A stretch of 21,287 nucleotides of DNA from a virus: IMG/VR virus record IMGVR_UViG_3300020054_000715, positions 1 through 21,287 of that record; one strand, written 5' to 3'. A program made the position numbers and the translations under genes. Below the pieces are notes generated by a model that was given only the letters and a program-made list of their open reading frames with translations, was not told the origin of the DNA and searched no databases. Positions 2,913-7,154 of the stretch are shown here, piece by piece. Within the stretch, counting starts at the first letter, position 1; every line of letters begins with the position of its first letter.

Positions 2913-3107
2913 TCAGGCGTCGAGCTGATGCAGCTCGTGCTCGATTGACCGGATCATGTGACCGGCCCAGGCCTGCTGCTCGGGTGAAGCAGGGTCCCAG
3001 AAGATGGCGCGGAAGTCGGCCAGCTCTTGGGTGAGCTCCTCACGCAGCCTGCGATCGGCGCGGAATGCTGCGAGGGCGTTGAGCTCGTCTTGGGATTGCC
3101 AGAACAT
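2913..3107 (-). CDS. 64-aa helical protein, first of leftward array
   Basis: This 64-residue protein is strongly helical and charged (MFWQSQDELNALAAFRADRR, then LREELTQELADFRAIFW and a final HELHQLDA), so an alpha-helical hairpin or coiled coil is likely. It is the promoter-proximal gene of the array: upstream of its leader repeat (3108-3128) lies the long non-coding region to 3633. Function unknown. The frame, composition and leader repeat together make it a confident gene. Confidence 0.65.
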   Translation of the reverse strand: MFWQSQDELNALAAFRADRRLREELTQELADFRAIFWDPASPEQQAWAGHMIRSIEHELHQLDA

Positions 3108-3128
3108 GGTTGCCGTTGCGAGGTGGGC
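3108..3128 (-). repeat. start-associated leader repeat, copy 7
   Basis: Common form next to the ATG of the first gene of the array (2913-3107). A short inverted repeat (AGCGAA at 3132-3137 with TTCGCT at 3152-3157) lies just upstream and could form a leader hairpin. Confidence 0.8.
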
Positions 3129-3207
3129 TGAAGCGAAGCCGTTATCTCGATTTCGCTGCGCTCAATCTACAACCCAGACCCAGCCACCCAGCCAGAAAGT
3201 AACAACG

Positions 3208-3226
3208 CTTAATATTAAGTGCACTT
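3208..3226. promoter_or_regulatory. overlapping palindromes, candidate operator
   Basis: CTTAATATTAAG (3208-3219) and AAGTGCACTT (3217-3226) are both perfect palindromes and share three bases. They lie about 100 bases upstream of the first array gene. The AT-rich centre could also include the -10 of the leftward promoter. Confidence 0.45.
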
Positions 3227-3447
3227 ATCAGTTCCTTATGTGTGATCAAGGTGAAGTCGGAGTGACTACGGGTTAGGACAGCACCAGATGAGCCTCTCGG
3301 TTATTGAGAATAGATTGCAATAAGAGTTTTCCCCAGGGGCTTACGCGCTACAGGCGACCCGAGAGATCCACCAGCTACCTGGCCGCCCGGCCCTGCTTTC
3401 CTGCGAATAATTCGCAATAAAGGGGCAAAATAGGGGGTAAAACGGCC

Positions 3448-3488
3448 AATTTGTCAAGAATTTGTCACATTTCCGTCATATTTGACAG
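3448..3488. promoter_or_regulatory. 11-bp phased TTTGTCA repeats
   Basis: AATTTGTCA occurs at 3448-3456 and again at 3459-3467; a third, weaker unit ending in GTCA follows at 3470-3478 with the same 11-base step, and an opposing TTTGACA lies at 3481-3487. One helical turn between units puts them on the same face of the DNA, as expected for a cooperative operator or origin iterons. Confidence 0.45.
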
Positions 3489-3633
3489 AATTCCCTCGAT
3501 GTGATCCAGATTTCCCACCTGATTCCTGTCCAGATGTGTCCAGGCCACTGGTCCAGGTCCCCGGATCCCTCTCCCTGACTGCCCCCGGCCCCTTGCGTAC
3601 CTGTCTGAAGTGCAGATACGCAGGATTGACCAC

Positions 3634-3655
3634 AAAAAAAGGGGCTCGAGGCCCC
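3634..3655 (-). terminator. intrinsic terminator of the leftward four-gene unit
   Basis: Read leftward, the stem GGGGC/GCCCC with loop CTCGA (3655-3641) is followed immediately by seven T (3640-3634). It lies about 30 bases after the stop of the 3687-3893 gene. Confidence 0.8.
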
Positions 3656-3686
3656 GTGAGACTGGTTTGGTACGGGTGAGACGGCC

Positions 3687-3893
3687 CTAGTCCACCTCGA
3701 TCAGGGTGATCTCGGCCTTCCGGAGGGGTCCGAACTCTCCCAGGGGCTCCGGATCGTCCCGCTTCTGGACCTCCCAGACCTGGCGGCCCCGATCGTCCCG
3801 GTGATGGGCGGCGTAGGCCGCGATCCAGTCCAGCATGTCCAGGAGATCGGCCTCCCCGGCCTTGACTTGTGCTCTGATCAGGTGTCTGCCCAT
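3687..3893 (-). CDS. 68-aa hypothetical protein
   Basis: This encodes 68 residues starting MGRHLIRAQVKAGEADLLDM, with a helical first half (LDWIAAYAAHHRDDRGRQVW) and a C-terminal strand ending AEITLIEVD. It is probably a small alpha/beta protein; no family recognised. It is the last gene of the leftward unit 5424-3687 and is followed by an intrinsic terminator. The 56-base gap upstream holds an inverted repeat (AAATTCC 3917-3923, GGAATTT 3944-3950) and TTAATTAA, so a separate promoter or mRNA processing point is possible. Its ATG has no obvious Shine-Dalgarno sequence. Confidence 0.6.
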   Translation of the reverse strand: MGRHLIRAQVKAGEADLLDMLDWIAAYAAHHRDDRGRQVWEVQKRDDPEPLGEFGPLRKAEITLIEVD

Positions 3894-5139: not shown

Positions 5140-5424
5140 TCAGCAGGGCTGGCCCATGGTGCGCTTTAGCTCCAGATACAGGCCGGGACGGATGTCGACG
5201 CGCTCGGCCTCCCTGGCCATAGGCCAGAAGTGGGAGGGAACGCAGTGATAGCCCCGGTAGCCCTCATCCCAGGCAGCCACCCGGCGCCCGTCCTGAACCA
5301 GGACGAACAGCCGGCGCGGGTTGCCGTTGCGGTCGTTGTGCGTGCAGCAGTGCTGGAAATACATCGGGCGATCAGCGAAGAGATCAGAAGCGGCCAGAGC
5401 TGCCGCTGAATCCATCTTGCCCAT
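5140..5424 (-). CDS. 94-aa hypothetical protein
   Basis: This encodes 94 residues starting MGKMDSAAALAASDLFADRP, then HCCTHNDRNGNPRRLFVLVQ, then aromatic, strand-rich sequence (WDEGYRGYHCVPSHFWP). Three cysteines and several histidines could bind a metal. The NGNPRRLFVLV strand resembles short beta-sheet proteins of cyanobacterial viruses in style, not by any confirmed match. It is the first gene of the second leftward unit and faces the divergent control region. A second in-frame ATG three codons in could be the true start. Confidence 0.6.
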   Translation of the reverse strand: MGKMDSAAALAASDLFADRPMYFQHCCTHNDRNGNPRRLFVLVQDGRRVAAWDEGYRGYHCVPSHFWPMAREAERVDIRPGLYLELKRTMGQPC

Positions 5425-5711
5425 AGATCGCGCCAGAAGTCAACCGATCGCGATCGAATCGCCAATACATATAGAAGCGATCGGCTTTGTAACTGAATGT
5501 GACTTGCTTAATGAAGCGTTCGTAACACTGTTACAAACCCGTTACACAGGGTCTTTTTTTTCCTACAACGTGAAGTTATGTGACGGGCGGGCCAGATGTC
5601 TCTCCAAAATATTCCCCCAATTTGACCCCAATATAGGGCACTTAGGGGGATCCGGCCATAGGGAGTTGAGTCAATTTAAACTGAGGAATAACGTGGTAAA
5701 TAGAGATAGTT
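5425..5711. promoter_or_regulatory. divergent control region
   Basis: This 287-base gap separates the leftward genes from the rightward virion operon. It includes GTAACA-C-TGTTAC (5522-5534, perfect inverted repeat) with a further GTTACA at 5541-5546, exactly 11 bases after the one at 5530; a T8 run (5553-5560) preceded by a weak ACCC/GGGT stem; and GGAGTT-6-ATTTAAACT (5662-5682), a motif shared with two other late genes. Promoters for both directions must lie here, but no textbook -35/-10 pair is convincing. Confidence 0.55.
5662..5682 (+). promoter_or_regulatory. shared late-gene upstream motif, copy 1
   Basis: GGAGTT, six bases, then ATTTAAACT, ending 29 bases before the ATG at 5712. Copies occur upstream of the genes at 9227 and 13565. 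It could be a phage-specific promoter element or an mRNA site. Confidence 0.4.
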
Positions 5712-7154
5712 ATGCCTGTATCTCCGGCAGACTTCGAGTTTTATTCCCGGATGACGGGGCAGCCCATTCCCAATACTCCAGCAGGGCGTATGGCTATCGC
5801 CCCGCAGGTGTATAACATGCGTCGCGGCGGAGGTGGTTTTGGCCGTGTTCTCCGTGGTGCCGCCAAAGGTGCATTAGCTGCAGGTGCTCTTGCTGGTGCA
5901 GGCGCTTTGGCATTAGCCACTCAGGAAGAGGTGGCCAAGACGGGTGGAGAGAAGAAAGCGAAAGTCACTGAAAACCTGACCGATACGGGTCGCTCCACTG
6001 AAACCACCACTGGCGGTCAAAAGGTGACTGTCAGTGCAACTGATAGTGAAGTTGCTGCGCCCTCGATTCGAGATAAGGTCCAGGACTTTGTTCAAGGCTT
6101 CAAAACTGATTCCGGTGAAGAGTTAGTTGGTACTGCTGCAACTCCAGAGCAGATTCAGGAGTTCCGCAACCGCTACTCAGGTCAGACGCAGATTCCTGTT
6201 GCTTCTCCTGAAGTTGAGAACGAAAGCCTGGCGGCCCAACGTGCTTCGGTCCAGGCCCCGACTGAACCTCGGGTCGGTGTTCGTCAACAACCTTCTTCTG
6301 GCGTAATACAGACTGATTTATCGAACGTTGCCGCGAAAGAATACAGCGTTGGCAAGATCGAGCCAGGCACTGAAATGATCACGGACCCTGAGCTGAATAA
6401 GTTAGCTCAGCAGTACGAGTTTTACGAAGCCTCTCAAGACATTAGTCCTTTCCAGGCACCGGGGACAGAAGCTTTCCCTAAGAGTGGCATGGAGTTACTC
6501 GCTGAACAGAGTAGGTCTGTTGACAAGCAAGAAAAGGACTTGGCACGAGAAATCCTTTCAGGTCTTGCGGACGAAGGAAAGGTTCGCATGGCAGGCTCCG
6601 TCTTTACGACTGACATTCCTGGAAGCTCTGCAGTTAGCAGTATTCAACTTGATCCTCAAGACCCTCAATACATGGGTGTGGCCTACACCAGTAATCCGAG
6701 TAAAACTTACAGGCAAGCCGTTACCCCGACTTTCGCCCGCGCAATGATGTCTCAGATGGATCGCCTTTCCGATCCAGAACAAAGCAGTCTCGAGCAATCC
6801 GAGATGGGTTCCATGGGGAAACTGCTTTCTGGAATGAAAAAGACGGGAGCAATGGTCAAAGAGGGTCAAACAGCTCCAGAAAGTCTCACTCCTTCTGCTT
6901 TTGTGACAAATAAAGGCCGTGAAGTCGGAGCTGTGATGAAGCGAGTAGAGGAAGCAAAGGCTGCAGCAGCTAAGCCTGTCACCCTTGGTGAAATCGCTGG
7001 AGATGTTGTCAGTGCTTTAAACCCTTTCAAAGATAGAAAGGCGGAAGCCCAAAAACGGCAACAAGCCGAGCAGTTGGTCATCAAGAGCCACGGCGATGTG
7101 AAAGATCCTGTTCAGAGGCAAAAGCTTATTGATTTCTACATGAAGCAAAAATAA
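5712..7154 (+). CDS. 480-aa putative internal virion protein
   Basis: This 480-residue protein opens the rightward operon. After a short N-terminus it has a Gly/Arg patch (RRGGGGFGRVLRGAAKG) and a long Ala/Gly hydrophobic segment (about residues 46-66), then a Thr/Glu/Gln-rich, probably disordered region, and near residues 295-375 a more ordered part (SSIQLDPQDPQYMGVAYTSN, then a Met-rich helix). That part has the outline of a KTSC-type small domain, which I offer only tentatively. The C-terminus is basic and helical. A glycine-rich membrane-active segment plus a location ahead of terminase and portal suggests an internal/ejection protein. The start at 5712 is the first ATG after the motif copy; the ribosome site is weak. 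Confidence 0.65.
   Translation: MPVSPADFEFYSRMTGQPIPNTPAGRMAIAPQVYNMRRGGGGFGRVLRGAAKGALAAGALAGAGALALATQEEVAKTGGEKKAKVTENLTDTGRSTETTTGGQKVTVSATDSEVAAPSIRDKVQDFVQGFKTDSGEELVGTAATPEQIQEFRNRYSGQTQIPVASPEVENESLAAQRASVQAPTEPRVGVRQQPSSGVIQTDLSNVAAKEYSVGKIEPGTEMITDPELNKLAQQYEFYEASQDISPFQAPGTEAFPKSGMELLAEQSRSVDKQEKDLAREILSGLADEGKVRMAGSVFTTDIPGSSAVSSIQLDPQDPQYMGVAYTSNPSKTYRQAVTPTFARAMMSQMDRLSDPEQSSLEQSEMGSMGKLLSGMKKTGAMVKEGQTAPESLTPSAFVTNKGREVGAVMKRVEEAKAAAAKPVTLGEIAGDVVSALNPFKDRKAEAQKRQQAEQLVIKSHGDVKDPVQRQKLIDFYMKQK

Follow-up and report, generated by a model that had tools for sequence, protein, structure and literature searches.

A putative dif-like site in the gene-free gap of an uncultured cyanophage, with counterparts opposite the likely replication origin of picocyanobacterial chromosomes

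The DNA analysed here, referred to as the window, is a virus record of 21.3 kb (21,287 nucleotides) whose terminase, head proteins and gene order resemble those of Synechococcus phage S-EIV1. The window is taken for an uncultured phage of picocyanobacteria and a relative of S-EIV1. Two of its leftward genes are separated by a gene-free gap that houses all the elements listed in Table 1. The only close relative covering the gap that was reached through the neighbouring gene is L004, while the others were reached through a 130-aa late-region protein and the site scan. A search of viral contigs with the neighbouring gene 3690-3893 confirmed no relative, and an exact search with GGAACTGATAAGTGCANTTAATATTA gave L008, which is the same contig as L004, as its sole match. 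The end of L003 and the start of L065 are two contigs of one sample that overlap by 46 bases, with the break about 200 bases from the dif-like site. Joined, they span about 79.1 kb, as S-EIV1 does, and carry one dif-like site.

Table 1. Features in and around the gene-free gap (window coordinates)
Feature	Position	Strand	Remarks
Leftward gene downstream of gap	2913..3107	-	64 codons and stop
Gene-free gap	3108..3690	.	583 nt, between two leftward genes
Second dyad O2, TTGAGAATAGATTGCAA	3304..3320	.	O1 half-site family
Operator-like dyad O1 (palindrome of the original prediction)	3401..3417	.	family TTGMGAA-N3-TTCKCAA
11-step repeats of the original prediction	3448..3487	-	
TGTCCA accessory repeat 1	3527..3532	+	points to dif-like site
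TGTCCA accessory repeat 2	3537..3542	+	10-base step
Dif-like 11-7-11 dyad, TGCGTACCTGT-CTGAAGT-GCAGATACGCA	3594..3622	.	conserved spacing; same kind as host chromosome-terminus site
Stem of intrinsic-terminator-like hairpin	3641..3655	-	T run follows; from terminator scan
Small leftward gene upstream of gap	3690..3893	-	without Pfam match; homologue in L004

The hairpin probably ends the transcript of gene 3690-3893. The scan found 2 intrinsic-terminator-like sites (2.2 expected in shuffles), and L004 has a G+C-rich repeat before a T run at the same place, by eye. A sigma-70 promoter was rejected: the minus-strand TTGACA at 3456-3451 is absent from L004, L065, L027, L028 and L029 and present in L011, and promoter-like sites numbered 1 against 1.2 expected. 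No Rfam match was obtained within the window at gathering scores, nor any tRNA or tmRNA in the window or in L003-L007. On the plus strand, GTTGCCGTTGCGANGTGGGC stands at 2879-2902 and at 3105-3128, ahead of at least two leftward start codons, and is a repeated translation-initiation leader. Elsewhere in the window, the late operon and the leftward genes diverge from an intergenic region at 5425-5711, which contains TGTTACA and CGTTACA repeats and is possibly a shared promoter or RNA. Positions 5370-5938 are 84.6% identical to L004, compared with 70-79% in other long aligned stretches.

Within the gap, the stretch 3402-3488 had originally been interpreted as an origin or operator, on the basis of a perfect inverted repeat followed by phased repeats. 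The inverted repeat, TGCGAAT-A-ATTCGCA, lies exactly at 3402-3416. By itself this palindrome is unremarkable, because the window contains 12 palindromes with arms of 7 and a spacer of at most 3 (5.4 expected from 50 dinucleotide shuffles) and one of this size appears in 10% of 2000 gap shuffles (P ~0.10). In an alignment of 10 sequences, the palindrome recurs in relatives as a 7-3-7 dyad of the O1 family, and the two arms change in matching fashion, from TTGCGAATTATTCGCAG in the window to TTGCGAATAATTCGCAG in L065 and TTGAGAACAATTCTCAA in L027 and L029. The dyad of L028, TTGCGAGCAATTCTCAA, is mixed, and that of L004 is degenerate. Conservation of a dyad among relatives, with half-sites that change in step, is the behaviour looked for in a phage operator, here found in few sequences. 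The frequency of such palindromes, the degenerate form in L004 and the small number of sequences would fit an explanation by chance, in which the palindrome and the repeats at 3402-3488 have no function and the dif-like site is the sole functional element of the gap. This explanation is considered unlikely, given that the dyad occupies the same place with two-sided changes in L065, L027, L029 and, in part, L028.

O2 is related to this dyad and lies at 3304-3320 in the window; L004 and L065 have one of this kind too. Among the contigs scanned, matches to the operator-family pattern are confined to this gap, at one place each in the window, the relative of about 79 kb (its two contigs taken together), the 49.6-kb contig G395, L029, L027 and L004. 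In the window and in L065/G393, the pattern finds O2 alone because the palindrome misses it by the last base. The original interpretation holds in part, in that its operator half has support from few relatives: the dyad is kept in place, with changes in both arms, but not intact in L004. The palindrome is probably the operator O1 of some regulator, adjoining A-tract-curved DNA, with O2 some 100 bases beyond it in the direction of leftward transcription. As far as sequence comparison goes, the region fits a candidate operator beside curved DNA.

The repeats were found as described. AATTTGTCA occurs at 3448-3456 and 3459-3467, a step of 11, followed by a weaker third unit at 3470 (5/9 match by eye) and an opposing TTTGACA at 3481-3487, all in an AT-rich stretch (GC 0.39 in 3402-3488 vs 0.54 for the window). 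A 9-nt exact direct repeat at a step of 9-13 arises in 1.45% of gap shuffles, in a post hoc comparison. The word AATTTGTCA is not kept in the relatives; what they repeat are short A-runs spaced 10-11 bases. In-phase A-runs are significant by shuffling in three of six sequences (L004, L065 and L027, P 0.001 or less) and fall short of significance in the window (P 0.06), L028 (0.08) and L029 (0.11). The DNA may be curved at these A-runs.

These observations bear on the idea that the gap is the replication origin of the phage, with the 11-step repeats as iterons and with TGGGGAAAAC and the AT-rich TGCAYTTAATA as initiator and unwinding elements. In the alignment, a DnaA-box-like TGKGGAAAAC is kept in 8/10 sequences (one A shorter in L029) and TGCAYTTAATA in 6/10; a passage of PMC6416890 gives TTTTCCACA as the DnaA box of a cyanobacterium. 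An iteron, however, should be conserved as a word, and AATTTGTCA is not. The GC-skew check, also proposed originally, was uninformative in the window and G393, with no clear switch, and 20 sampled pieces of the host genome G001 gave a weak skew signal. No initiator gene was identified. Consequently, an origin at this place is regarded as improbable.

The main feature of the gap, missed in the original prediction, is a 29-base dyad about 105 bases upstream of the 11-step repeats. Its pattern, TGCGTANCTGY-N7-RCAGNTACGCA, forms a 10-9-10 inverted repeat whose spacing is constrained. With 3 mismatches and spacers of 3-15 allowed, the dyad was sought in 63 records, some of which are overlapping pieces of one contig. 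The 11 distinct contigs that carry it, including the window, all have a spacer of 9, and the other matches among these records combine 3 mismatches with different spacers. Across viral contigs, the 10-base arms are found in at least 120 stretches at spacer 9 and in 3 at spacer 10. Because columns 11 and 19, which the scan pattern left free, are Y and R in 73/73 host sites and 118/119 viral sites among the matches listed, the anatomy is 11-7-11. Fixed spacing, two 11-bp half-sites and a variable 7-bp centre agree with the layout of dif sites, for which passages of the review PMC5357621 give 11-bp half-sites and a central region of 6-8 bp. Ten-base complementary arms could also fold into an RNA hairpin or transcription terminator, and some host copies (L245 and L247, for example) have longer complementary flanks by eye. 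Such a structure is very hard to reconcile with the rest of the data: the centre columns hold no base-pairing excess, arm pairs are broken in L055 (two) and L061 (three), the smaller genomes have unlike arms, and the spacer is fixed at 9.

A site of this kind is found on host chromosomes too. Among 84,980 species genomes, 79 stretches match the pattern, from which 6 asymmetric matches with non-cyanobacterial titles were dropped; of the 73 host sites kept, all but one come from records titled as cyanobacteria, and the exception, titled Bifidobacterium, corresponds to G064 in the picocyanobacterial family search. At up to 2 mismatches, the site is present in 195/392 picocyanobacterial genomes, in single copy in 183, compared with 6/392 genomes for a reversed-pattern control (own count of the listing). 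The distance from site to dnaN is 0.388-0.495 of the circle in 16/16 genomes with both on one contig. These genomes were chosen for having the site on a long first contig; for 11 of them sizes rounded to 0.1 Mb were used and the contig was taken as closed. G075 was left out because its site and dnaN are on different contigs. From genomes with several matches the best was taken, except in G277 and G279, for which the copy beside the RHH/DnaJ gene was used, and a shorter core pattern located the site of G280. Without G277 and G279, the remaining 14 genomes span the same range. A uniform spread would give such clustering with a probability of 4e-11 if the genomes are treated as independent, which they are not. 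In many picocyanobacteria, the site is thus present about once per chromosome and opposite the likely replication origin, as expected of dif.

Second sites were looked at in 10 hosts with multiple matches, and several of them look like chance; G076 and G077 likewise have two matches each. In G277 and G279, the terminus copy is not the best match, and copies with fewer mismatches are found at distances from dnaN of 0.30 and 0.19 of the circle. G279 has three extra sites within about 20 kb (L290 7826 and 18571, L291 8025), amid fragments of a T7-like RNA polymerase and of an integrase, and the extra site of G277 (L292 9807) has a full T7-like RNA polymerase gene about 4 kb away and an integrase gene 7 kb away. 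This setting suggests that the extra sites belong to mobile elements carrying the site.

No site was found at up to 2 mismatches in 197/392 genomes, though most of them hold the recombinase described below. Among them are G127-G274, 148 genomes of 1.2-1.8 Mb taken for Prochlorococcus on the strength of their size. Allowing 3 mismatches revealed a site in 0/15 consensus-lacking genomes, and a TAACTG-type core was present in 3/45. Seven smaller genomes were read in part, as 20-kb pieces near mid-contig, and in five of these a diverged site stands at the same locus, at 0.496-0.516 of the contig; it follows the DnaJ-domain gene that also precedes the site in SynAce01, G277 and G279. Its form is NACTGY-N7-ACAGTACTA in G149 (861,846), G128 (893,452), G167 (882,561) and G146 (865,101), and GTGCTGC-CTTAAAG-ACAGTACTAC in G160 (829,201-829,224, by eye). 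At 1,657,990 bp, G160 has the length of MED4. The stretches read of G136 and G158 contained no site, nor did 4-kb pieces of G150, G154, G156 and G168. According to Table 1 of PMC10913375, the ter stretch of MED4 is 826,000-832,000, and the G160 site falls inside it.

A candidate enzyme is almost as widespread as the hosts themselves. A core tyrosine recombinase (PF00589) is encoded in 374/392 genomes at E 1e-20, and in three of four genomes compared (G001, G002 and G004) its gene lies beside one of the ferrochelatase (hemH) family. By eye, four orthologues keep the motifs YGLRNHEV, KTGEHQVW, Y[ND]LRHAW and MMGH...TRTYHHW, so that the residues R, K, R, H and Y are present; in HxLRH, Tyr takes the place of the first His. 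Among solved structures, the XerC-like 4a8e comes closest (E 0.0018), and the NCBIfam models XerS, XerA and XerD match weakly, far below every Xer cut-off. This recombinase may be the enzyme that acts on the site.

On the phage side, 119 viral loci were considered among the matches listed. They include three disjoint phage groups. A T7-like terminase marks 60 loci; 19 encode a different terminase, closest among cultured phages to that of KBS-S-2A (45% identity); and 11, window included, have a member of the protein family encoded by the window at 5712. The other 29 belong to none of these. At up to 3 mismatches, no consensus site was found in cultured S-EIV1, P-SSP7, Syn5, P60, KBS-S-2A, MED4-184, S-H1 or MED4-117, of which MED4-117 was covered over 32.0/38.8 kb and P-SSP7 and KBS-S-2A over all but the last 0.2 and 0.6 kb. 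P-SCSP1a, a phage of MED4 whose group shares 74% terminase identity with L149, has TGCGGAACTGT-CATAACG-ACAGTACTACA in the matching gap, next to its terminase genes; this sequence departs from the consensus at 5 positions. The right arm, ACAGTACTAC, recurs in the terminus site of the smaller genomes, and P-SCSP1h, which also has MED4 as host, shows the same. The centres of the P-SCSP1 and G160 sites are different.

Phage and host sites also coincide in some of their centres. Among the matches listed, 13 of the 82 distinct viral 7-bp centres are shared with hosts, against a null mean of 4.3 and a largest value of 11 in 2000 draws, the null ignoring relatedness. At all 29 bases, one viral site agrees with 5 host sites; none of the 73 hosts has the centre found in the window. 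In arms, spacing and accessory repeats, the phage sites resemble the host site as the attP of an integrative mobile element exploiting Xer (IMEX) resembles dif. No protein family is common to the neighbourhoods of the 73 host sites and the 119 viral sites among the matches listed, and therefore no phage was seen integrated at the chromosomal site. A search with 12 query sequences found no tyrosine recombinase in the phage contigs of the relatives; therefore, the phage would depend on its host.

The resemblance extends to the flanking DNA. In 130-bp site flanks, compared with control windows 300 bp further out (unequal in number, as some loci end), TGTCCA is the most enriched 6-mer, present in 61 flanks vs 5 control windows in hosts and 106 vs 5 in viruses among the matches listed. 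In 72 host loci, 113 copies of TGTCC are directed toward the site and 40 away from it; in 107 viral loci among the matches listed, the figures are 174 and 59. TGTCC lies mostly 50-90 bp from the site in hosts and 40-80 or 0-20 bp in viruses, and its commonest step is 11 in both. Ribbon-helix-helix (RHH) proteins often bind short repeats spaced about one helical turn apart. A family of RHH/DnaJ proteins is encoded near the site in 55/73 host loci, at a median of 416 bases, and in 8 loci viewed individually the site is 311-409 bases downstream of the gene. The protein (L257 1302-2342 and orthologues), beside the chromosomal site, has a C-terminal DnaJ domain and a weak N-terminal RHH match, with RHH_1 hits in 4/5 orthologues (best E 0.0029, below cut-off). 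It is a candidate accessory factor.

This association raises the question of whether the dyad is instead bound by a terminus-organising or segregation protein, such as the RHH/DnaJ protein, without any recombination, in which case phages would be positioned or segregated together with the host terminus. The proximity of the gene, the weak RHH_1 matches and the TGTCCA repeats about one helical turn apart are all compatible with such a role. Nevertheless, the 11-7-11 layout with conserved arms and a variable centre suits the half-sites and central region of dif, as passages of PMC5357621 describe them, and viral and host centres match above the null, which would be unexpected if the arms alone were important. 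Segregation without recombination is therefore judged rather doubtful.

The explanation preferred here is that 3594-3622 is a putative dif, a copy of which phages probably carry for the host recombinase. From the features described, we infer a binding protein, recombination and a benefit to the phage. Together with the TGTCCA repeats at 3527-3542, the dyad would be the phage copy of the hosts' chromosome-terminus site. Two protomers of the core tyrosine recombinase encoded beside hemH would bind the 11-bp arms and swap strands in the 7-bp centre, and strand exchange would be controlled by a factor, possibly the RHH/DnaJ protein, that sits on the phased TGTCCA repeats. On the chromosome, the recombinase would resolve dimers at the terminus. 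On the phage, the host enzyme would either act on multimeric genomes, by resolving or circularising them, or join them to the terminus through transient recombination. The 583-nt gap as a whole is proposed, again as the probable explanation, to be a cis-acting region of the phage that holds the operator-like elements as well as the dif-like site.

Several known systems offer points of comparison. ColE1 cer is a plasmid multimer-resolution site in which a Xer core has accessory sequence on one side. The present arrangement is similar, but core and accessory repeats are here common to phages and chromosomes. As in dif/XerCD or the XerS, XerH and XerA systems, there is one short terminus dyad per chromosome, with 11-bp half-sites and a near-universal tyrosine recombinase, here a candidate for the cognate enzyme, and the 7-bp centre is within the usual 6-8. 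In contrast to them, no sequence resemblance to a known dif is established, the recombinase is far below all Xer model cut-offs, and the nearby TGTCCA repeats are an added element. According to parts of PMC5357621, the IMEX phages CTXphi, VGJphi (29-bp attP) and TLCphi use host Xer at dif. Like them, the phages considered here bring a dif site resembling that of the host and, in the contigs searched, no recombinase; unlike them, they are tailed phages of three groups that share the accessory repeats too, and no integrated copy was found. Passages of PMC8776855 (2022) describe T7-like cyanophages, P-SSP7 and S-TIP37, that integrate at tRNA-Leu via their own integrase, transiently and with no stable lysogens. 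Those are likewise cyanophages of lytic dynamics with an attachment site, but they rely on their own integrase and tRNA-Leu, and P-SSP7 is without the terminus-type site.

In passages of PMC3025954, dif was predicted in 0/5 cyanobacteria, and in those of PMC5101192 xerC is called rare in cyanobacteria. PMC10913375 (2024, on vesicles) marks a dif/ter stretch in Prochlorococcus MED4, with dif sites taken from the literature and no dif sequence in the passages available. Titles and abstract openings in the open-licence PubMed Central literature gave no site sequence of a cyanobacterial or cyanophage dif. The candidate described here supplies the site letter by letter, a candidate enzyme and accessory repeats. 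It is tentatively suggested that the 29-bp site, the phased TGTCCA repeats, the core recombinase beside hemH and the RHH/DnaJ protein adjacent to the site could be components of an undescribed Xer-like system of picocyanobacteria, with copies matched to host clade in at least three unrelated cyanophage groups, some of them regarded as lytic. Clade-matched phage copies would therefore point to a widespread Xer-dependent stage, either transient integration at the terminus or a circular episome. That phages have such a site matters for whether cyanophages of these hosts pass through any non-lytic stage, and cultures of both MED4 and the P-SCSP1 phages make a direct test possible.
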